From contig NZ_SGXM01000006.1 of NCBI RefSeq assembly GCF_004217045.1, forward strand, positions 124,001 through 188,000: a stretch of DNA of 64,000 bases, in the 5' to 3' direction. Under the pieces are notes generated by a model. The model was not told where the DNA came from. It saw nothing but the letters and a program-made list of their open reading frames with translations, and did not search any database. Positions 42,807 through 53,560 of this stretch are shown here, in pieces. Made by a program: the position numbers and the translations under genes. The stretch comes from Cupriavidus agavae. Lineage in GTDB: Bacteria > Pseudomonadota > Gammaproteobacteria > Burkholderiales > Burkholderiaceae. Numbering within the stretch: position 1 is the first letter of the stretch; every line of letters begins with the position of its first letter.

Positions 42807-43532
42807 TTATCTGCCGCGCCGCGCGTTGACCACTCGATCGCTCGGCTCTGCGAGAGTCTGCTCCACTACCCGCAACACCTCGCGCGCCGTGTTCTCCGAG
42901 TGATCGCGCAGGATGGTTGCCAAGCGTGGTCGTCCTGGCTCGCGCAAAGCATCCATGATGGCGTCATGCTCTTCATGCGATTCTTGCCAACGCAATTGAT
43001 CTGCGTTGGCCGCACCGCGCGCACGATGCACCTTGCTCATCAAAGTGGCATAAATCCCTGAGAGGACGGCGTTGTCGGCGCTGTCCACAATCATCTGGTG
43101 GATTTCCTGGTTGATACGGAAATAATCCGTGCGCTTGCCCCCCGCATGGGCGTCAATCATGGCCTGGTGCTTCCGCTCGATTTTCGCGAGCGCGACATCG
43201 CTCAACCGATTCGCCACCAGTTGGCCGGCGTGCGTTTCCAGCCCATGAAGGGTTTCAAAGGTCTCGCGCAACTCATCCAGGTCCAGCGGTGCGACGCGAT
43301 AGCCGATGTACTGGCGGTGCAGCACCAACCCTTCGGACACCAGCACCTTGAGCGCTTCGCGCAGCGGTGTCTTTGACACGTCGAACGCATCGCAGAACGC
43401 TTTCTCGTCAATGCGTGCTCCCGGCGGCAGTTCGCCTTCCTGGATCATCGTGCGCAGACTCGCCGCGATTCCGGCGGACATGCCCAGTGTGCGCAGGCGG
43501 GCGGTTTTGGGAAGAGCTTGTGTCAAGGACAT
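42807..43532 (-). CDS. GntR-family (FadR/FCD) regulator of the hydantoinase cluster
   Basis: 241 residues from the ATG at 43532 (a GTG is three bases earlier). The winged helix (LRTMIQEGELPPGARIDEKA, then FDVSKTPLREALKVLVSEGL) and FCD ligand domain (LETHAGQLVANRL, RINQEIHQMIVDSADN, SHEEHDAIMDALRE) are clear, with the His/Asp/Asn metal sites of FCD proteins. It is divergent from the MFS gene at 43729 and is the obvious repressor of the following five genes. The probable operator is in the 196-base gap. Confidence 0.88.
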   Translation of the reverse strand: MSLTQALPKTARLRTLGMSAGIAASLRTMIQEGELPPGARIDEKAFCDAFDVSKTPLREALKVLVSEGLVLHRQYIGYRVAPLDLDELRETFETLHGLETHAGQLVANRLSDVALAKIERKHQAMIDAHAGGKRTDYFRINQEIHQMIVDSADNAVLSGIYATLMSKVHRARGAANADQLRWQESHEEHDAIMDALREPGRPRLATILRDHSENTAREVLRVVEQTLAEPSDRVVNARRGR

Positions 43533-43624
43533 CACCAGAAGTGGGAATTCTGCACCAGATCTAAGACTATCACACCAGATTGGGGCTTACCCTATAGCTA
43601 TATAAATCAATAACTTGGCAGCGT

Positions 43625-43634
43625 TGTAATTACA
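43625..43634. promoter_or_regulatory. Short palindrome in the GntR/MFS intergenic region, candidate operator
   Basis: TGTAATTACA is a perfect 10-bp palindrome, placed between the divergent GntR-type gene and the MFS gene, with AT-rich promoter-like DNA around it (TATAGCTATATAAATCAATA). FCD-type GntR proteins often bind T-x-G-T-x-x-x-A-C-x-A sites; this is similar but not exact. Confidence 0.4.
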
Positions 43635-43728
43635 GATTACGTATCCTATACTCGGTCCAGTTGCGCGACACCATGAATAGAACCCGCCTCGACAACGCAG
43701 CACCCAGAAGCAAGGAGACACCCTCGTC

Positions 43729-45027
43729 ATGCCTACCACTAGCCACGCCGCCACGATGACGGCAACGCGCAGCAGCGTTCGCTGGAAGATCTTTGTGATG
43801 ATGCTGTTTCTCATCGCCATCAACTACATCGACCGTGCGTCGCTGTCGGTGGCGATGCCGCTAATCGCGAAAGAATTCGACCTGAGTCCCACCATGCAGG
43901 GCCTGATCCTGAGTTCGTTCTTCTGGACGTACGCCCTGATGCAGGTACCTGGCGGCATGCTGGCCGACAAGTACAAACCGCGCATCGTGATCGCCTGCGC
44001 CACCGTGTTCTGGGGCGCCTTCCAGGCACTGGCCGCGGTCTGCACCACTTCCACCGCATTGCTTCTGACCCGTCTCGGGCTGGGCGCTGCCGAAGCGCCG
44101 ATCTATCCGGCTGGCGGCAAGCTCAACGCCATCTGGATGACCCAGAACGAACGCGGCCGCGGCGCCACGCTGCTGGATGGTGGCGCACCGCTGGGTGCCG
44201 CGCTGGGCGCGATCATCATCACCTCGCTGATAGCATCGCTGGGCTCATGGCGACTGGCCTTTGTCGTGGCTGGTGTGGGTACCATCATCGCCGGTGCCGT
44301 GGCATGGTGGTACATCCGCAATTCGCCGCGTGAGCACGCCGGCGTCAACGAGATCGAAGCGCGCTATATCGAAGACGCACAAGCCAACGAGCACCGCGCC
44401 GAGCCGGCCAACCTGTCGGGTCGCTCGCTCGATTTCTTCAAGTACCGTTCGGTCTGGTGCATGGCCATTGGCTGGATGTGCTTCAACACCGTGTTCTACG
44501 GCCTGCTGACCTGGATGCCCAACTACCTGAATAAGGTGCACGGCTTCGACATCAAGGCCATGGGCGGCGCCAGCTTCATCATCTTCTTCTGCGGCTTCAT
44601 CGGCGAACTGATCGGTGGCTGGATTGCCGACAAGTGGAAGGAAGCCGGCGGACGTCCCAACGTGGTTATGCGTACGCTGTTCGGCATCGCGGCGGTCGTG
44701 GCCACGGTTTCCATTTTCTCGGTGGCCTACGTGACCGACCCCGTGTTAGTGGTCGCCCTGCTCTCTTCCACGCTGTTCTTCCTGCGCTGGTGTGGCCTGT
44801 TCTGGTGTATCCCGTCCATCCTGGGCACCCGCAACAAGATTGGCTTCCTGGGTGGTGTGATGAATCTTGGCGGCAATATCGGTGGTATTAGCGTGCCCAT
44901 CATCGTCGGGTTGATCGTGCAGTACACCGGCTCGTACTTTCTGGCCCTGATGTTCTTCGCCGCCGCCGGCGTGGGCCTGCTGCTGGCTTCCACGGCGATC
45001 GACTACGAAAAGAAAATCCCGGTCTGA
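43729..45027 (+). CDS. MFS transporter of the anion:cation symporter (ACS) type
   Basis: 432 residues, 12 helices. The N-terminus has the ACS pattern LIAINYIDRASLSVAMPLIA, and GMLADKYKPRIVIACATVFW carries the D-x-K/R-x-x-R loop. ACS carriers import organic anions such as hexuronates, glucarate or phthalate with H+. It is the first gene of the cluster regulated by the adjacent GntR protein, so it probably imports the substrate or its carboxylate product. Confidence 0.9.
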   Translation: MPTTSHAATMTATRSSVRWKIFVMMLFLIAINYIDRASLSVAMPLIAKEFDLSPTMQGLILSSFFWTYALMQVPGGMLADKYKPRIVIACATVFWGAFQALAAVCTTSTALLLTRLGLGAAEAPIYPAGGKLNAIWMTQNERGRGATLLDGGAPLGAALGAIIITSLIASLGSWRLAFVVAGVGTIIAGAVAWWYIRNSPREHAGVNEIEARYIEDAQANEHRAEPANLSGRSLDFFKYRSVWCMAIGWMCFNTVFYGLLTWMPNYLNKVHGFDIKAMGGASFIIFFCGFIGELIGGWIADKWKEAGGRPNVVMRTLFGIAAVVATVSIFSVAYVTDPVLVVALLSSTLFFLRWCGLFWCIPSILGTRNKIGFLGGVMNLGGNIGGISVPIIVGLIVQYTGSYFLALMFFAAAGVGLLLASTAIDYEKKIPV

Positions 45028-45079
45028 CCACCGGCCTCGCGAACCCGGCGTGACAACACGCCGGCTGGCGGAGACACCC

Positions 45080-46264
45080 ATGAAACGATTCACATTGATT
45101 GCCACAGCCGCGATCCTCGTGGCCGGTGCGCTGCAGGCAGCAGCAGCCACGGCGGACAACGCAGGTGGCATTCCCACCGCGCAGCCGGAAGCCGTCGGCG
45201 TGGATTCGGCACGGCTGGTGGCCTTGTCCCAAATGATTCGCCGCGATCAGCTCGATGTGCGGAGTTTGTTGGTCGTTAAGGATGGCAAGCTCGTGTTTGA
45301 GCGCTATGCCGACGGCGTGACCCGCGATCACAACCACGAGCTGTATTCGGTCACGAAGTTCGTCAGCGCGCTGCTGGTGGGCACGCTGGTTGGCGATGGC
45401 GAACTTGCTGCCACGGATGCCCCGGCACAGAAACTGGCTGCCGTGCGCCCGGATCTGGCGGCCGCGCTAGCGGACAAGCAGCAAATCCAGCTACGTCATC
45501 TGATGTCGATGTCGAGCGGACTGTCATACAAGCTGGTGGAAGGCACGGACACGCTCTACTACGGCGTTCCCGACAGACTGAAGGTGGCGGCGTCCGCCAG
45601 TGTGCGCACGACGCCCGGCACCGAATTCGACTACATCGACGTGAACCCAGTACTGGTTGGGGCCACGATCACTCAAGCCACAGGCATGTCAGAGCAGCAA
45701 TATGCTGCGCAGCGTCTGTTCAAGCCGCTCGGCATGTCTCACTTTCGTTGGGATGGCGCCGACGGCAAGGGCGCCGTGTCGGGCGGCTGGGGATTGCGGC
45801 TGCGCTCGATCGACATGGCGCGGCTCGGCATGCTGATGCTCGATCAGGGCAGATGGAATGGTCAGCAAGTCGTGCCCGCTTCGTGGGTGGCCCAGATGAC
45901 CACGCCATCCGGCCCGGCGAGGGACTACGGATACTACTGCTGGGTCAACAACATCGTCCAATCGGAGCGCGAATTCAGCGCCATGGGCTACAAGGGGCAG
46001 TTCATTACCGTGCTGCCAGAGCAGAAGGCGGTGATCGTCATGAACAGCATCATGTCGACGCAAGGCGGCCTGCGGGATGCAAAGTACCTGGATCTGTACC
46101 GCCAGATGGTCAACGATTACATACTGCCTGCGCTGCAGGCCGGCTATACCGTCAAGCCTGACGCCAGTCGTCAGGCTGCGTTGAAGAAGGAACTGGAATT
46201 CGCGCGCGCCAGCCACGGTGTCCCGGGCACTCAGCTCGCCTTCAACGACAAGCCCGAACAATAA
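45080..46264 (+). CDS. Exported serine hydrolase of the beta-lactamase (class C/esterase) fold
   Basis: 394 residues from the ATG at 45080, with GGAGACACCC before it. A signal peptide (about 1-22, ending AAA) leads to a serine hydrolase core with SVTK (Ser 90, Lys 93), the nucleophile pair of class C beta-lactamases, DD-peptidases, EstB-type esterases and NylB amidases. The usual Y-x-N motif appears as D-V-N (FDYIDVNPVLVGATI), with a Tyr two residues earlier; the third motif is near YKGQFITVLPEQ. It is more likely a periplasmic amidase or esterase acting on the pathway substrate than a resistance enzyme. Confidence 0.82.
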   Translation: MKRFTLIATAAILVAGALQAAAATADNAGGIPTAQPEAVGVDSARLVALSQMIRRDQLDVRSLLVVKDGKLVFERYADGVTRDHNHELYSVTKFVSALLVGTLVGDGELAATDAPAQKLAAVRPDLAAALADKQQIQLRHLMSMSSGLSYKLVEGTDTLYYGVPDRLKVAASASVRTTPGTEFDYIDVNPVLVGATITQATGMSEQQYAAQRLFKPLGMSHFRWDGADGKGAVSGGWGLRLRSIDMARLGMLMLDQGRWNGQQVVPASWVAQMTTPSGPARDYGYYCWVNNIVQSEREFSAMGYKGQFITVLPEQKAVIVMNSIMSTQGGLRDAKYLDLYRQMVNDYILPALQAGYTVKPDASRQAALKKELEFARASHGVPGTQLAFNDKPEQ

Positions 46265-46326
46265 AAACAATATCAACAATGAGGTACCGCGCCCAGACGG
46301 TGCCCGTCAACTCTTGAGAACCAACC

Positions 46327-47055
46327 ATGAGCAAGCAAACTCGTCTCGGCATGCTGACGCCTTCGTCCAACACGGCGCTGGAGCCCATTACCAGTGCAAT
46401 GGTGAGCGGCCTGCCCAACGTCAGCGCGCATTTCTCGCGCTTCACGGTCACCGAAATTTCGTTACGTGACCAGGCACTGGGACAATTCGACCTGGAGAAG
46501 ATTCTGGGCGCGGCGCGGCTGCTGGCCGATGCCCGTGTCGATGTCATCGCATGGAACGGCACCTCGTCGGGCTGGCTTGGCTTCGACAAGGATCAGGCGC
46601 TGTGCAGGCAAATCACCGAGGCCACTGGAATTCCGGCTACCACATCGGTGCTGGCACTGAACGAGATTCTCGAGAAAACCGACGCGCGCCGCTTCGGACT
46701 GGCCACGCCCTATCTCGACGATGTGCAGCAACGCATCATCGCCAACTACCAGCGCAGCGGCTTTGACGCGTCGGCGGAACGGCATCTGGAGCTGCATGTG
46801 AACTACAGCTTCGCAGCGGTGGAAGAAGACACCATTCGCCGCATGGTTCGCGAGTTGGCGAAGGAGAACGTGCAGGCCATCACCACGTTCTGCACCAATC
46901 TGCGCGCGGCCCACCTGGCCGAGGAACTGGAGGCCGAGACCGGTATTCCGCTGTACGACACCATCTCCACCGTGGTGTGGAAGTCGCTGCGGCTTGCCGG
47001 CGTGGATACCAGCGCCCTGAAGGGCTGGGGCCGCCTGTTCCGCGACGTCGAGTAA
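46327..47055 (+). CDS. Arylmalonate decarboxylase/maleate isomerase-like enzyme lacking the first catalytic Cys
   Basis: 242 residues. The N-terminus RLGMLTPSSNTALEP and the rest match the Asp/Glu racemase superfamily, maleate isomerase/arylmalonate decarboxylase branch. At the first catalytic site the sequence is AWNGTSSGWLG, with Gly 78 where racemases and maleate isomerases have Cys. The second site keeps Cys 189 (ITTFCTNLRAA). Gly plus one Cys is the arrangement of arylmalonate decarboxylase (Gly74/Cys188), so decarboxylation or a one-base reaction is more likely than two-base racemisation. It is followed within 21 bases by the hydantoinase gene. Confidence 0.82.
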   Translation: MSKQTRLGMLTPSSNTALEPITSAMVSGLPNVSAHFSRFTVTEISLRDQALGQFDLEKILGAARLLADARVDVIAWNGTSSGWLGFDKDQALCRQITEATGIPATTSVLALNEILEKTDARRFGLATPYLDDVQQRIIANYQRSGFDASAERHLELHVNYSFAAVEEDTIRRMVRELAKENVQAITTFCTNLRAAHLAEELEAETGIPLYDTISTVVWKSLRLAGVDTSALKGWGRLFRDVE

Positions 47056-47075
47056 GCCACCCGCATCGAAGAGTG

Positions 47076-48500
47076 ATGACCATGCCTGCAGACAACAATC
47101 TCGACCTCGTGATCCGCAATGCGGACGTGGTCACCGCCTCGGACCGGTTCCGCTGCGACATCGGCGTACGGCACGGCAAGATCGTGGCGCTTGGCCACGA
47201 TCTGCCTGCCGGACAGCAGGAAGTCGACGCAACGGGCCTGCTGGCCCTGCCCGGCGGCGTCGACGGCCACTGCCATCTGGACCAGCCCATGCCCGAGGGC
47301 ATGCGCATGGCCGACGACTTCTTCACGGGCACCCGCGCGGCGGTATGCGGCGGGACCACGACGGTGATTCCGTTCGCCGCCCAGGAGAAAGGCCACTCGT
47401 TGAAAGCCGCTGTGGCGGACTACCATCGTCGTGCCGAAGGCCGTGCCGTGATCGACTACGCGTTCCACCTGATCGTGGCCGATCCGACCCCTTCCGTGCT
47501 GCAGGACGAACTGCCCGCGCTGATCCGCCAGGGCTATACCTCGTTCAAGGTCTACATGACCTATGACGACCTGAAACTCTCCGACCGCGAGATGCTGGAG
47601 GTGCTCGACGTAGCGCGCCAGAACAACGCACTGGTCATGGTGCATGCCGAGAATGCCGACTGCATCTCGTGGCTGACGGACAAGCTGACTGCCGAAGGCC
47701 GCATTGCGCCCCGCTTCCATGGCCTGGCTCGCCCCGCCGTGGTCGAGCGCGAAGCCACGCATCGGGCCATTTCATTTGCCGAACTGGTCGATGTGCCGAT
47801 CCTGATCGTGCATGTCTCCGGCAAGGAAGCCATCGAGCAGATCCGCTGGGCACAGGGCCGCGGCCTGAAAATCCTTGCCGAGACGTGCCCGCAATACCTC
47901 TACCTGACCGCGGAGGATATGGGCCTGCCCGGCGACGATGGCTATGAAGGCGCCAAGTGCGTGTGCAGCCCGCCGCCGCGCGACCCGGAAAACCAGGCTG
48001 CCGTATGGCGTGCGCTGGAAAACGGCGTGTTTAGCGTGTTCTCGTCTGATCACGCACCTTTCAACTACGACGACCCCGCGGGCAAGAAGTTAAGAGGAAC
48101 CGTACAGCCTTTCGACCATATTCCGAACGGCGTACCGGGGATCGAGACTCGCCTGCCGCTACTGTTCGATGGCGTGCAGCGCGGCAAGCTATCGCTGCAC
48201 CAGTTCGTGGAACTGACATCCTACCGGCCCGCGCGGATCTACGGCCTATATCCACGGAAGGGCACCATTGCAGTGGGCGCCGATGCCGACATCGTGCTGT
48301 GGGATCCCTCACGTAAAGTGCGCATCGCCAATAGCAACCTGCACCACGCCGTCGACTACACGCCGTATGAAGGCATCGAAGTCACCGGCTGGCCGATGAC
48401 GACCTTCTCGCGCGGAGAAATGCTCGTGCGCAATGGCGAATACCTGGAGCCGGCCGCCGGACGCGGCAAGTTCCTCGAAGCCGGACAACCCGAGCTTTGA
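47076..48500 (+). CDS. Dihydropyrimidinase/D-hydantoinase-type cyclic amidohydrolase
   Basis: 474 residues from the ATG at 47076. All metal ligands of the binuclear amidohydrolase are present: HCH at 65-67 (GVDGHCHLDQP), the carboxylated Lys 158 (SFKVYMTY), His 190 (VMVHAEN), His 246 (ILIVHVSGKE) and Asp 325 (FSSDHAPFN). The length and blocks fit hydantoinase/dihydropyrimidinase, which opens cyclic ureides to N-carbamoyl acids in the cytoplasm. No N-carbamoylase gene follows; instead a racemase-like gene lies 19 bases on. The substrate could be a hydantoin, dihydropyrimidine or a related imide. Confidence 0.9.
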   Translation: MTMPADNNLDLVIRNADVVTASDRFRCDIGVRHGKIVALGHDLPAGQQEVDATGLLALPGGVDGHCHLDQPMPEGMRMADDFFTGTRAAVCGGTTTVIPFAAQEKGHSLKAAVADYHRRAEGRAVIDYAFHLIVADPTPSVLQDELPALIRQGYTSFKVYMTYDDLKLSDREMLEVLDVARQNNALVMVHAENADCISWLTDKLTAEGRIAPRFHGLARPAVVEREATHRAISFAELVDVPILIVHVSGKEAIEQIRWAQGRGLKILAETCPQYLYLTAEDMGLPGDDGYEGAKCVCSPPPRDPENQAAVWRALENGVFSVFSSDHAPFNYDDPAGKKLRGTVQPFDHIPNGVPGIETRLPLLFDGVQRGKLSLHQFVELTSYRPARIYGLYPRKGTIAVGADADIVLWDPSRKVRIANSNLHHAVDYTPYEGIEVTGWPMTTFSRGEMLVRNGEYLEPAAGRGKFLEAGQPEL

Positions 48501-48519
48501 TCGCACATCGAGACACTCC

Positions 48520-49257
48520 ATGAATCTTCTGATCGTCAACCCGAATATCAGCGAGTCGGTCACCAGCCTGATCCATGCGGAAGCTCGGCGCACCGTCTCG
48601 CCCAACACCCGGATCACGATGGCTACGGCGGGCTTCGGCGTGGCCTATATCGAAACCCGGTTCGAAGCGCTGGTGGGCGGCTACGCCACCGCCTGCGCGG
48701 CGTCGGAGCACGCCGGCAGCTTCGACGGACTGGTTGTGGCCGCCTTCGGCGACCCGGGACTCGCCGGCCTCAAGGAACTGTTCGACGTGCCCGTCGTCGG
48801 CATGACAGAGGCCGCTCTGGCGAGCGCCTGCCTGCTGGGTCAGCGCTTCTCGATCATCGCCATCTCGCATCGCATCGAGGCATGGTATCGCGAGACAGTT
48901 GCCGCCAATGGACTGGCATCGCGGCTGGCAAGCATCCGGTCGCTGCAGTCGCCGTTGCGGGATATTGGCACCGTGCAACAGGACCATACTGCCGCACTTG
49001 AGGAAATGAGTCTGCGAGCGGTGCGCGAAGATGGCGCTGACGTGATCATCGTCGCCGGAGCGCCGCTCGCAGGTTTGGCGCGGGCGCTCGAGGGCAAAAT
49101 TCCCGTGCCCGTCGTGGATGGTGTCAGCAGCGCTATCCGCCATTGCGAATCGTTAGTGGCACTACGGGCCGGGACCAGCCGTGAAGGCAGTTTCGCCAAG
49201 CCGCCAAAGAAACCCAACGCTGGCCTTCCCCCTGCGGTGGCGTCACTGCTGGGTTGA
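48520..49257 (+). CDS. Hydantoin-racemase-family protein lacking both catalytic cysteines
   Basis: 245 residues from the ATG at 48520. The N-terminus MNLLIVNPNISESVTSLI is that of hydantoin/allantoin racemases, and the blocks are in register. At the first site the family has A-C-F-x-D-P-G; here it is VVAAFGDPGL with Ala 75. At the second site the family has G-C-A-G; here VAGAPLAG has Ala 181. Both acid/base cysteines are therefore absent, so normal two-base racemisation is not possible. It may bind its substrate, catalyse another step or be regulatory. It is the last gene of the cluster. Confidence 0.82.
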   Translation: MNLLIVNPNISESVTSLIHAEARRTVSPNTRITMATAGFGVAYIETRFEALVGGYATACAASEHAGSFDGLVVAAFGDPGLAGLKELFDVPVVGMTEAALASACLLGQRFSIIAISHRIEAWYRETVAANGLASRLASIRSLQSPLRDIGTVQQDHTAALEEMSLRAVREDGADVIIVAGAPLAGLARALEGKIPVPVVDGVSSAIRHCESLVALRAGTSREGSFAKPPKKPNAGLPPAVASLLG

Positions 49258-49549: not shown

Positions 49550-50020
49550 TCACCTTGCCCGCGGTTCGGAAAGCAAGGACAGAATACGGGGGTCATGTTC
49601 TACGCGCCGCGCTTCCCCCACCTTAGCCTTTGCAGCGTCGGGATGTAGTGGATTGAACAGGTAGTTCGATGCATATGGGACCAGCACGCTCGGCACTTTC
49701 AATAGCAGGCCGGATCGCACCGACAACCACTCCGTTCCAGCATTTTTCGACCAGCCTGCGTTTTGCTTCCAGTCGTCGGGCAAATCGGAAATGCTAGCGA
49801 CGGCGACTGCATCTTCGATTTCCACGGTGAGAAGCTGATAATCCCTGGGCAGTTCCTCGATCCGCGAAACCTCGTGATGTACCAGGATTTCCAGAAAAGC
49901 CAAGGCGGGGTGCTCCGCCAAATACACCACGGGCTGCCCGGGATAATGCCATCGGCCCCCTGCCCGCAAGCCACCAATCCCTTTGAGGTCGGCATAGTTA
50001 CTGATGCGCCAAAGAGTCAT
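49550..50020 (-). CDS. RES-domain toxin (NAD+-degrading) of a type II toxin-antitoxin system
   Basis: 156 residues. The RES family blocks are visible: LWRISNYADLKGIGGLRAGG with GGRWHYPGQPVVYLAEHPAL and AFLEILVHHEV, then SNYLFNPLHPDAA near the end. The R, Y, E and S positions fit the NAD+ phosphorylase/glycohydrolase site of MbcT/RES toxins. Free toxin depletes NAD+. The start overlaps the antitoxin stop by one base. Confidence 0.88.
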   Translation of the reverse strand: MTLWRISNYADLKGIGGLRAGGRWHYPGQPVVYLAEHPALAFLEILVHHEVSRIEELPRDYQLLTVEIEDAVAVASISDLPDDWKQNAGWSKNAGTEWLSVRSGLLLKVPSVLVPYASNYLFNPLHPDAAKAKVGEARRVEHDPRILSLLSEPRAR

Positions 50021-50475
50021 CAGGCGAAGTATCCTTCGTCGATCTGCACCAGTTGCTCTTCCACCAGGTGCGCGCCCTGCTCGGTGCCGGCCATCTCGAG
50101 TGGCGTAATGCTTCCCAGCCGTCGCTGCTTCGCGCGTAGCCAGTGCAGCGCCCGTTCGGCATCCCCGAAGGTGTTCGTGGCCTGGGCAAGGATACGGGCC
50201 AGCCGAATGGCCTTGTCGGATTCCTCAATGGTCAGCGGCTGCCCTTTGTCGCGCCGATGGCTTAGGGTTCGGCGAGGAATAATGAACGCCACCTCGTCCC
50301 ACGTAAGTCCAATTTCCAGCAGGCGTTCGAGGATGTCGGCGGGCAGTCGGTCATGGGCAAGCGTTGCAAGATCGGCGCCATTGCGCACTTTAGTGCTTAA
50401 AAAGGCACTTAATTGATCAAGATAGCGCTCATAAGGCGCGCGAGCTCCTGACGGACGAAAGGTGGTTGTCTGCAT
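50020..50475 (-). CDS. Xre/MbcA/ParS-type antitoxin partner of the RES toxin
   Basis: 151 residues from the ATG at 50475, with GGAG upstream; a TTG five codons earlier is possible. It has an N-terminal Xre-like region (LLEIGLTWDEVAFIIPRRTL) and C-terminal DUF2384 toxin-binding part (ILAQATNTFGDAERALHWLR, ITPLEMAGTEQGAHLVEEQL). It blocks the RES active site and represses its own promoter, probably at the inverted repeat 50486-50518. Confidence 0.88.
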   Translation of the reverse strand: MQTTTFRPSGARAPYERYLDQLSAFLSTKVRNGADLATLAHDRLPADILERLLEIGLTWDEVAFIIPRRTLSHRRDKGQPLTIEESDKAIRLARILAQATNTFGDAERALHWLRAKQRRLGSITPLEMAGTEQGAHLVEEQLVQIDEGYFA

Positions 50476-50893: not shown

Positions 50894-51835
50894 CTATCGA
50901 ATGGCAACCGGATTCACGTTGACCTGCGTGGATCCCACATAGAGTGGCTGCCCCAAGACGAACAGAAATTCCCACGCCTGATCTCGTACCAGCGCCCGGC
51001 TGTCGATCAACTCCAGGTTGTAGATTCCACGCTTCGCGAGCATGTACTGATTCACCGGGAACTCTTCCTTTCCGTGCGGACTCGGGTAGACCTCCGAAGC
51101 CCATGTATCTCCCCCGAAGGCTACGATGCCTTGGTCAGCCAGCCATTTGGCGGCGTCCATGCCGATGCCGGGCTCCACTTCCAGAAATTGGTTGTTGTCC
51201 TTCCCGATCAACTCCAGCCAGCCAGTATTGAATAGCACCACATCGCCCTTGCGTAGCGTGATGCCCTGCTTTTTCAGTACGGCTTGTACATCCGCCACCG
51301 AGAACTCGGTGCCGCCAGGAACTATGGCTTTGCCAAAGTGCGCGGTCATGTCGAGTACCACACCGCGTGTCACCAGCGGCGGCACTTTCTCCACGCCGAG
51401 CTTTCGGACACCATTCACGCTGACGAAATCGGCGGCCCGGTTCCCGTTGTAGTACACATTGTCGATGCCGATATGACCGATACCGTTGAGCTGTGTCCCG
51501 ACGCCGGTCCAAGCATTGACCAGTTCGTCGTTGAACGTGAACTTGTTCGGGCCAAGCGACAGCCCGGCCTGCTGCCCAACCTGCACGTTGTAGAGCTGGA
51601 AGCTGCGATGCCGGTAGGCCGGGAGCGACTTGTCCACCGGCACAGCCAGCGGATAGGTCTTGCCACTCTTCACCAGCGTGACCGCCTGCTTGACGACGTC
51701 CGGTGTCAGCAGGTTGGCCGCACCAATCTCGTCGCGCGCGCCATAAGGCGATGGATACCAATCCGCTGCGGACGCGGCATGGATGAATAGCGGCAGCGTC
51801 CCGATCAGGAAAGTCTTGGCGAGTGTTTTTTTCAC
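50894..51835 (-). CDS. Exported cyclase-family (arylformamidase-like) protein with altered metal motif
   Basis: 313 residues from a GTG at 51835, chosen because a signal peptide (MKKTLAKTFLIGTLPLFIHA, then ASA) and GAGGACA lie in place; a start further up adds 18 odd residues. It is a member of the cyclase/KynB fold (GARDEIGAANLLTPDVVKQA near the N-terminus, and LRKGDVVLFNTGWLE). The metal motif of the family, H-x-G-T-H-x-D-x-x-x-H, reads GVGTQLNGIGHIG: the second His is Gln 115 and the Asp is Asn 117, while His 121 stays. Relatives of this exported group often keep T-Q-L-D. Function uncertain: periplasmic hydrolase or a binding protein. Confidence 0.8.
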   Translation of the reverse strand: MKKTLAKTFLIGTLPLFIHAASAADWYPSPYGARDEIGAANLLTPDVVKQAVTLVKSGKTYPLAVPVDKSLPAYRHRSFQLYNVQVGQQAGLSLGPNKFTFNDELVNAWTGVGTQLNGIGHIGIDNVYYNGNRAADFVSVNGVRKLGVEKVPPLVTRGVVLDMTAHFGKAIVPGGTEFSVADVQAVLKKQGITLRKGDVVLFNTGWLELIGKDNNQFLEVEPGIGMDAAKWLADQGIVAFGGDTWASEVYPSPHGKEEFPVNQYMLAKRGIYNLELIDSRALVRDQAWEFLFVLGQPLYVGSTQVNVNPVAIR

Positions 51836-52352
51836 GGCAATTGTCCTCGTTGGAGAGTGGCGCCTTTCCATGCACCAGCTTTCGAGCACGGTCTTGCGCG
51901 AATGGGCGTCGCCCAGGCCAAGCCCGAAGTCTGACTTCGACTCTCACGACGATAAAGCCGCCAGGCTGCGAATATGACTTGCGTTGCAGTCAACAATACG
52001 AGCGCGCAGCAAGTCCCGCTACGCCGCTCATGTTCCAGCCGCGCGCGCCTTTCTAACGCTGTAGCAGGAGTTCCTGCAGCGAGATCTCTTTCACGCTGCC
52101 GATTGCCGAGTTCGGCCCATCGCGCAAAGCGACAGCGATGAATAATCAGTCGGACCTCGAACAGGCGATACGAAACCATCCTCTCTTCGCATCGAAGGAA
52201 CCAACGGAATATGTGATGGGGTAACGGAGCGCCCCACCGGCGTAGAAGCAAATCCAAACGCTTTCTTCGTGCCAACGAACGCCCAAAAGTTAATATCTAG
52301 GCATTTTTTGAGCGTCTGTAGTCTGGATCTTTCGGAATTCGACTCATAGATT
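51836..52352. other. Intergenic region between the cyclase-family gene and the Fic gene
   Basis: About 500 bases. It holds the promoters of the two divergent genes. No supported gene; minus-strand frames here lack motifs. Confidence 0.4.
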
Positions 52353-52378
52353 GAGCCGTATGTGAGAATATGCGGCTC
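52353..52378. promoter_or_regulatory. Inverted repeat around the Fic start codon
   Basis: GAGCCG (52353-52358) and CGGCTC (52373-52378) are the ends of an imperfect inverted repeat with two mismatches in about 11 bases. It covers the ATG at 52370 and ends just before a second in-frame ATG at 52379. If translation starts at 52379, the repeat is a leader operator or hairpin, possibly bound by the Fic protein's own winged helix. Confidence 0.45.
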
Positions 52379-53560
52379 ATGGATACTTCTTCCCCGTGGA
52401 TCTGGCGGCGGGCAGATTGGCCCGAAGACGCCCTCGCCTATGACGCTCACCAGACTGCCTCTGACCTAGCTGAAGCCTATCGCACGTATGGCCTCCTGGA
52501 AGGCAAGGCCACAACACTCGGCCTTGGCAGGACGAGTGAGGTCGCGTTGGATGCACTGTCCGACGAGGTGCTGGCGACAGCCGCTATTGAAGGGGAGCGT
52601 CTACCGCTCGATGCCGTCCGTTCGTCGGTCATGAGGAGGTTGGGCTTGGCAACGTCCGGGCCATTTAACCGTAGCGTCGACGGTCTGGTGGATGTCATTT
52701 GTGACGCCACCTCGGCGATTGATACGCCTTTGGACGAAGACCGTTTGTGTCGGTGGCAGTCTGCCCTATTTCCTGGCGGCACATCCGGCATCCACCGAAT
52801 TGCGGTCGGGCGCTATCGAGACCACGTGGATCCCATGCAAATAGTGAGCGGTCGACCGGGACGCGAAGTCGTGCACTACGAGGCGCCACCCTCGAAAGAC
52901 GTGTCGATGCAAATGGAGCGATTTCTCCTCTGGTTTGCCGACACCTCGCCGAACGCGACATCGGCGATGTCGGTTCGAGGCAAGCCTATCGACGGCTTGG
53001 CTCGCGCTGCCATTGCTCACCTGTGGTTCGAAACTATTCACCCTTTTGAGGACGGGAATGGCCGTATCGGCCGCGCGATTGCAGACATGGCCGTGGCGCA
53101 GCACTTGCGGCAACCGGTGCGGCTATACAGTCTTTCGCGACAGTTGCTCGCGTCACGTGCGGCCTACTATGACGCCCTGAACCAAGCCCAGCGCAGCCAG
53201 ACCGACGTCACGGCATGGGTACAGTGGTTTGCCCGGCAAAGCACTGCGGCCTGTCATGCCGCCAATCAGGTCATCGACCAGGCGATCGAAAAGCGGCGAT
53301 TTTGGGAAAAACAGGAAGGTATCGCTCTTCATGAACGGCAACGCAAAGTGCTGCAGCGACTACTGGACGACGGCGATGGTGGCTTCCTGGGAGGGCTGAA
53401 CGCTGAGAAGTACATGAAGATGACCGGGGTTTCAAAAGCAACCGCCACTCGCGATCTTTCGGCGATGGTCGCCAGCGGGCAAATGCGGGGGCATGGTGCC
53501 GGCAAAGCGCTGCGCTATTTCGTAAACGTCCCCGGTTGGACGCATGGCATAACGGAGTGA
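52370..53560 (+). CDS. Fic-domain AMP-transferase with N-terminal inhibitory helix and C-terminal winged helix
   Basis: 396 residues from the ATG at 52370, or 393 from 52379. The N-terminus is of DUF4172 type (PWIWRRADWPEDALAYDA). An inhibitory [S/T]xxxE[G/N] motif is at 70-75 (TAAIEG), making it a class II Fic protein that clamps its own active site. The catalytic motif HPFEDGNGRIGRA starts at about residue 224 and is complete. A C-terminal winged helix (LLDDGDGGFLGGLNAEKYMK, VSKATATRDLSAMVASG) may bind DNA. It moves AMP from ATP to a target protein; target unknown. Confidence 0.9.
   Translation: MRLMDTSSPWIWRRADWPEDALAYDAHQTASDLAEAYRTYGLLEGKATTLGLGRTSEVALDALSDEVLATAAIEGERLPLDAVRSSVMRRLGLATSGPFNRSVDGLVDVICDATSAIDTPLDEDRLCRWQSALFPGGTSGIHRIAVGRYRDHVDPMQIVSGRPGREVVHYEAPPSKDVSMQMERFLLWFADTSPNATSAMSVRGKPIDGLARAAIAHLWFETIHPFEDGNGRIGRAIADMAVAQHLRQPVRLYSLSRQLLASRAAYYDALNQAQRSQTDVTAWVQWFARQSTAACHAANQVIDQAIEKRRFWEKQEGIALHERQRKVLQRLLDDGDGGFLGGLNAEKYMKMTGVSKATATRDLSAMVASGQMRGHGAGKALRYFVNVPGWTHGITE

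Follow-up and report, generated by a model that had tools for sequence, protein, structure and literature searches.

A conserved Cupriavidus gene cluster with a hydantoinase and a relative of arylmalonate decarboxylase, a candidate operon for catabolism of a cyclic amide or ureide

Two described systems for the breakdown of cyclic ureides rely on enzymes of the hydantoinase/dihydropyrimidinase family. The hyu clusters consist of a hydantoinase, an N-carbamoylase and a hydantoin racemase, and the reductive catabolism of pyrimidines uses dihydropyrimidine dehydrogenase (DPD), dihydropyrimidinase and beta-ureidopropionase. Another enzyme, arylmalonate decarboxylase (AMDase, EC 4.1.1.76), is encoded in amd clusters which are often found near TRAP or ABC carriers (PMC4996985). 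The present analysis deals with a six-gene cluster in a stretch of 64,000 nucleotides from Cupriavidus agavae (the window, positions 124001-188000 of its contig, in a genome of 5,791,022 bases), where a hydantoinase is encoded next to an AMDase-like protein. The parts of this cluster belong to known families; their combination appears to be undescribed, and the whole looks like an operon that serves the breakdown of a cyclic amide or ureide.

Conservation and control of the cluster

An earlier note on this DNA described six genes in one arrangement, and gene calls and profile searches recovered all six, on the strands and at the positions listed in Table 1. Linkage was examined in 79 loci, taken from the best 80 of 570 confirmed stretches in a scan of genome contigs; a gene was counted when it lies within 7 kb of the AMDase-like gene. 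The carrier is present in 70 of the 79 loci, gntR in 67 and the hydantoinase in 64, while the racemase-like gene is found in 36, the serine hydrolase in 34 and a FAH-family gene in 22. With a threshold of E 1e-20, 107 of the 299 genomes of the family have a match to the AMDase-like protein. Among Burkholderiaceae genomes, 46 of 48 racemase-like homologues with at least 60% identity lie within the same distance of an AMDase-like gene (one of the two unlinked homologues is on a separate small contig), and so do 30 of 40 hydantoinases with at least 59% identity, the close tier. None of the 11 hydantoinases with 49-52% identity does, nor any of the 38 with 36-40%. By our own arithmetic, chance alone would place about 0.2% of such genes within a target of 14 kb when the genome measures 6 Mb, and the clustering is far above this value. 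Conserved clustering in relatives, which the earlier note proposed to look for, does exist. The carrier, the regulator, the AMDase-like gene and the hydantoinase form a conserved catabolic unit, in which the serine hydrolase is optional. A search of the whole class covered 369 genomes and gave matches in 3, a number too small to be of use.

Gene-order maps were drawn for 60 selected loci. The common order is GntR-MFS-AMDase-like-hydantoinase, with racemase-like and/or serine hydrolase genes; the order GntR-ABC-AMDase-like-hydantoinase is also observed, and nine Cupriavidus loci (L110-117, L122) have GntR-MFS-AMDase-like without further partners. The FAH-family gene was considered as a core member and is at best a doubtful one. 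Its position varies by lineage: Collimonas (L159-161, L168) and a Neisseriaceae genome (L158) have it downstream, on the same strand, but in Cupriavidus and Ralstonia it lies on the side of the regulator. In the genome of the window its homologue (84% identity) is accompanied by an M20 gene and a helix-turn-helix gene on a different contig.

Ten plasmid loci were chosen from 46 records. A hydantoinase of 55-69% identity is close to the AMDase-like gene in five of them (two from Azospirillum, and one each from Klebsiella, Paracoccus and Diaphorobacter), and on a Methylobacterium plasmid an annotated dihydropyrimidinase lies about 6 kb away. No hydantoinase of that kind adjoins the AMDase-like gene in the Burkholderia glumae, Rhizobium, Leptolyngbya and Sinorhizobium plasmid loci; in those of Rhizobium and Leptolyngbya its neighbours are other amidohydrolases. 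The B. glumae plasmid is conjugative and carries the homologue with GntR and MFS genes (L128), and Leptolyngbya, whose plasmid homologue is 64% identical (L130), is a cyanobacterium, which suggests horizontal transfer.

Other gene sets share some of these families. In L247 and L248, from other Cupriavidus, a hydantoinase (67-69% identity), an amidase, a racemase-like gene lacking the catalytic cysteines and a different MFS carrier form a set which stands apart from GntR-MFS-AMDase-like; two genomes with such a set (G079, G107) have no AMDase-like match. Elsewhere (L067, L072, L075, L085-L087, L089-L091, L096, L211), an operon that starts with LysR and has the order Amidohydro_2-UbiD-UbiX-CobW ends in an AMDase-like gene, hydantoinase being absent. 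Part of these operons also encode a carrier of the xanthine-permease family (over cut-off) and a 2paj-like deaminase, and a pathway for decarboxylation of an N-heterocycle is possible.

The regulator gene and the carrier gene are divergent, and the region between them contains a sigma-70-like promoter (TTGTAA, a spacer of 17 bases, TATACT). The scan for this pattern is not significant by itself, with one match against a shuffle mean of 1.6. Conservation is more informative: TGTAATT is present in 60 of 66 gntR-mfs intergenic regions, compared to a mononucleotide-shuffle mean of 0.9, the 17-base spacer is kept in 51 and a stricter pattern matches 41, the 66 regions being related sequences and hence not independent. 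The element TTGTAATTACAGATTA, which overlaps the −35 box, occurs once in the 5.79 Mb genome at up to two mismatches (the reversed control does not occur), and is a putative dedicated operator of the cluster.

Sequence features of the encoded proteins

Among named organisms, the AMDase-like gene has its closest relatives in Cupriavidus (94-95%). The predicted model of the protein (pLDDT 88, pTM 0.89) has the fold of AMDase and maleate isomerase, with a TM-score of 0.84 to both 3dg9 and 2xec. C189 is conserved in all 61 aligned rows, and at least 95% of the rows keep G78, T79, S80, Y129, N15 and N159; in one of ten diverse rows S80 is replaced by Ala. The protein was compared with criteria 1-4 and 8-12 of the 12 that Table 4 of PMC4996985 gives for AMDase; the local alignments begin at residue 56, beyond the region of L40, V43 and Y48 of the hydrophobic pocket (criteria 5-7). 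G78/C189, T79-S80 and Y129 align with G74/C188, T75-S76 and Y126 of AMDase (criteria 10, 2 and 3). T190, N159 and F162 occupy the positions of G189, V156 and M159 (criteria 4, 8 and 9), WNGTSSGW and ITTFCTNL those of the motifs LMGTSLSF and ILLSCGGL (criteria 11 and 12), and P12-S13 that of P14-P15 (criterion 1), the latter by eye and outside the alignment. The same paper judges proteins which have no hydrophobic pocket very unlikely to be arylmalonate enzymes.

The maleate isomerase 2xec has the same residues at the positions aligned with N15, Y129, N159 and C189, and the first of its two cysteines corresponds to G78. The cysteine pair of Asp/Glu or hydantoin racemases is likewise incomplete: C189 is alone and the first position is a glycine. 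One protonating cysteine in a polar pocket would suit the decarboxylation of a small polar diacid, and such a polar, single-cysteine relative of AMDase appears to be undescribed.

The hydantoinase exceeds the cut-offs of two family profiles, NF009941 (Table 1) and TIGR02033 (535 bits, cut-off 393), and matches the D-hydantoinase 1nfg with an E value of 6e-132. It is the only hydantoinase-type match at E 1e-60 in its genome. H65, H67, K158, Y163, H190, H246, S298, D325 and N351, which we take to be the metal-ligand and substrate residues, are kept in at least 95% of 38 rows. Q70, H229 and C295-x-C297 mark the close-tier hydantoinases, the Paracoccus protein deviating at several of these positions. 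K167, at the position of F159 in the D-hydantoinase 4kqn, is a lysine in 110 of 113 rows linked to an AMDase-like gene (open reading frames longer than 400 aa only, with the window present twice and some genomes twice). It was tried as a mark of a carboxylated substrate and rejected: nine of ten second-tier hydantoinases without an AMDase-like gene nearby also have this lysine and the tenth has an arginine. Two of those which bear K167 adjoin a nitrilase-type hydrolase and a racemase of the two-cysteine type.

The model of the racemase-like protein (pLDDT 84, pTM 0.80) is closest to 5lg5/5lfd (TM-score 0.80), and its family profile is well above cut-off. Its nearest relatives in sequence and in fold are allantoin racemases, 33-34% identical in the fold comparison. 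The alignment to 5lfd and 3qvj shows Ala75 and Gly180 at the positions of the two catalytic cysteines. The earlier note had called this protein cysteine-free, which needs correction, since C59, C104 and C209 are present and only the two catalytic cysteines are missing. The first catalytic cysteine is absent in 67 of 70 rows, in which some genomes are included twice; the exceptions are L262 and two added controls, which come from L256 and L257. Outside the second-tier loci every row has the motifs AFGDPGL and AGAPL(A/S)GL, and the loss of the catalytic cysteines is common to the Methylobacterium and Diaphorobacter plasmid homologues. OpaE was considered as a model of a racemase without cysteines and discarded, because it has the catalytic pair (PMC12661438). 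This branch of the family appears to be undescribed, and suggests a chemistry that is new to the family.

The N-terminus of the serine hydrolase resembles a signal peptide by eye, S100-V-T-K103 is kept in at least 95% of 26 rows and the best PDB match is 8dc1 (Lsa45). The earlier note suggested that a periplasmic hydrolase could release a cyclic imide. Because the gene is optional (34/79 loci), such a release is not part of the core.

Table 1. Genes and promoter/operator element of the cluster (positions in the window)
Feature	Position	Strand	Basis
GntR-FCD transcriptional regulator, divergent from operon	42807-43535	-	PF07729 and PF00392 over cut-off
Promoter/operator element: TTGTAATTACAGATTA at 43624-43639, overlapping the −35 box; TATACT at 43647-43652	43624-43652	+	Conservation
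ACS-type MFS carrier	43729-45027	+	PF07690; TIGR00893 246 bits, below cut-off of 395
Beta-lactamase-fold serine hydrolase	45080-46264 (open reading frame opens at 45050)	+	PF00144
AMDase/maleate-isomerase-like protein, one active-site Cys	46327-47055	+	PF17645 and PF01177
Hydantoinase/dihydropyrimidinase, NF009941 (PRK13404) subfamily	47076-48500	+	764 bits, cut-off 647
Asp/Glu/hydantoin-racemase family protein	48520-49257	+	PF01177, 136 bits against 31

The AMDase-like, hydantoinase and racemase-like genes are separated by 20 and 19 nt. Just past the cluster downstream, the window encodes an RES-domain toxin with an antitoxin of the Xre/MbcA/ParS type (49550-50475, − strand), followed by a PF04199 'putative cyclase' family protein whose start looks exported by eye (50894-51889, − strand) and a Fic-family protein with DUF4172 (52370-53560, + strand). 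The PF04199 gene is not conserved with the cluster in the gene-order maps.

A possible pathway and its alternatives

What the sequences suggest, tentatively, is a substrate-induced and self-contained operon in which the opening of a ring to a malonate-type diacid would be followed by its decarboxylation. The GntR-FCD protein would keep the single divergent promoter repressed as long as no metabolite of the pathway is bound, and the ACS carrier, judged by its family, would import an organic anion. The hydantoinase, whose family is clear, would open its substrate, a cyclic amide or ureide, by hydrolysis of one amide bond. In a hydantoinase product, the carbonyl that was cleaved stays on the adjacent ring carbon in the form of a carboxylate. 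A ring in which this carbon is already carboxylated, such as 5-carboxy-5,6-dihydrouracil or hydantoin-5-carboxylate, would therefore yield two carboxylates on one carbon, a malonate-type diacid. The AMDase-like protein could then release one of the two as CO2 in a cofactor-free reaction, C189 acting as the proton donor, glycine replacing the second cysteine, and N15, Y129 and N159 making up the polar pocket. The racemase homologue without catalytic cysteines would act on some intermediate of the pathway, and the remaining hydrolysis (by a carbamoylase, an amidase or a FAH-type enzyme) would depend on other genes, local in some lineages and in trans here. It is possible, if rather doubtful, that this amounts to an undescribed pathway in which a carboxylated cyclic ureide is converted by the hydantoinase into a malonate-type diacid, which a polar-pocket relative of AMDase decarboxylates with the help of a non-racemizing branch of the racemase family.

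The earlier note stated that N-carbamoylase and DPD are both missing. This holds locally for the two enzymes: no N-carbamoylase was found among the gene calls around the cluster, and no DPD scores over the NF006183 cut-off anywhere in the genome of the window (2 of 14 controls pass). It does not extend to carbamoylases elsewhere, as four M20 genes of the hydantoinase/carbamoylase family (TIGR01879) are over cut-off in the same genome. One of them shares the contig of the cluster and lies about 17 kb downstream of it, in a row with an amidase and ABC-transporter genes; this locus (L287) spans positions 184000-199000 of the contig. One query with a nitrilase-type D-carbamoylase found nothing in the genome, in a search without a positive control. 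Because of these four genes, a ureide pathway may be completed in trans. The note was right that the gene set is neither that of the usual hydantoin pathway nor that of reductive pyrimidine catabolism, and both classical pathways were discarded, with no local carbamoylase and no DPD over cut-off. Its further proposal, an imported cyclic imide which is opened and decarboxylated, agrees with the unit of carrier, cyclic amidohydrolase and decarboxylase-like protein, but nothing favors an imide over a ureide or a lactam.

Several observations weigh against the proposed sequence of ring opening and decarboxylation. By its sequence, the AMDase-like protein fails the published criteria for arylmalonate decarboxylase. 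Its gene also occurs without a hydantoinase, in the GntR-MFS-AMDase-like loci of Cupriavidus and in the UbiD/UbiX/xanthine-permease operon, and conversely a hydantoinase with a racemase-like gene is found beside an amidase with no AMDase-like gene nearby. Nothing in the sequences pins down a substrate; K167 of the hydantoinase appears in the alignment as a clade trait and not as evidence on the substrate, because second-tier hydantoinases without an AMDase-like gene also carry the lysine. Linkage to the AMDase-like gene requires six changes on the hydantoinase tree (39 rows) and defines no single clean clade. In this tree a supported group contains nine of the ten second-tier rows, and the dihydropyrimidinase rows have very long branches, their placement being unreliable.

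Other explanations were weighed. Ordinary hydantoin or dihydropyrimidine use could be split over the genome: the hydantoinase would open a 5-substituted hydantoin or dihydrouracil and an M20 carbamoylase encoded elsewhere would finish the pathway, while the AMDase-like and racemase-like proteins deal only with stereochemistry or a side product. The four TIGR01879 genes, among them the one on the same contig, speak for this scheme, which is nevertheless somewhat unlikely: the constant part of the loci is the AMDase-like gene, whose single cysteine makes a two-cysteine racemization unexpected, the racemase-like protein lacks both catalytic cysteines in every one of the 67 rows that are not from second-tier loci, and a search allowing up to two mismatches gave no further copy of the operator in the genome. 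The hydantoinase could also be an imidase (of the succinimide, maleimide or glutarimide type), with an amidase acting on the half-amide and the AMDase-like protein on the diacid. An amidase is indeed found beside the hydantoinase or the AMDase-like gene in L247/L248 and on plasmids of Azospirillum, Leptolyngbya and Sinorhizobium, the pocket of the AMDase-like protein resembles that of maleate isomerase, and the nicotinate pathway of Aspergillus opens a cyclic imide before hydrolyzing the amide (PMC9304392). However, the cluster in the window contains no amidase, the first cysteine required for maleate isomerization is a glycine, and the imidases of PMC9304392 belong to another fold family, being related to PuuE-type and peptidoglycan deacetylase-like proteins and not to hydantoinases. 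The imide or lactam route is clearly unlikely, and a maleimide/maleate pathway was rejected because of the missing cysteine.

It is quite improbable that the AMDase-like protein, instead of being a decarboxylase, serves in the breakdown of N-heterocycles in general (pterin-, purine- or pyrimidine-like compounds), its link with the hydantoinase being one use of several. Its gene is indeed the last one of operons which encode UbiD/UbiX, a carrier of the xanthine-permease family and a 2paj-like deaminase, and it adjoins TRZ/ATZ-type amidohydrolases, but a hydantoinase is present in most of the loci (64/79) and the Gly/Cys pair is conserved as in AMDase. As for chance neighbours without a shared function, the exported hydrolase and the racemase-like gene do come and go among loci, but set against the co-location counts given above the probability of this explanation is practically nil. 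Nothing that the earlier note considered fatal to its reading came up: the clustering is conserved, and the open-access literature that was searched held no pathway with this gene set and no paper pairing AMDase with a hydantoinase or a dihydropyrimidinase as gene neighbours.

If ring opening followed by decarboxylation is correct, two enzyme families that are known chiefly as biocatalysts would gain natural roles. The hydantoinase and AMDase-like subfamilies are inherited jointly under their own regulator, and the putative operator is single in the genome, so that the inducer and the substrate can be looked for with one reporter and a few knockouts.

Comparison with known systems

AMDase has the same superfamily and fold as the AMDase-like protein, in which the equivalents of G74/C188, T75-S76 and Y126 are all present. 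The genetic contexts differ: PMC4996985 stresses an MR/MLE enzyme and tricarboxylate carriers in amd clusters, whereas the present cluster has a hydantoinase and GntR/MFS genes. The closest fold by Foldseek E-value is that of maleate cis-trans isomerase (2xec, 4fq7), whose covalent mechanism is not available here, Gly78 replacing the first cysteine. The closest kin of the racemase-like protein are allantoin and hydantoin racemases (5lfd, 3qvj), from which it differs by the replacement of both catalytic cysteines.

The part in common with reductive pyrimidine catabolism is the dihydropyrimidinase-family enzyme, but the canonical dihydropyrimidinases of the relatives are only 36-40% identical to that of the window, and none of the 38 is near an AMDase-like gene. 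A hydantoinase operon of Paraburkholderia phymatum (Bphy_6150-52), for which an RpoN site is predicted, figures among the symbiosis-related targets in PMC5979394. Hydantoinases which lie beside nitrilase-type hydrolases are only 48-49% identical to the enzyme of the window. As in hyu clusters, a hydantoinase, a racemase-family gene and a carrier are found together; unlike them, the cluster has no local carbamoylase, its racemase homologue lacks the catalytic cysteines and an AMDase-like gene is added.

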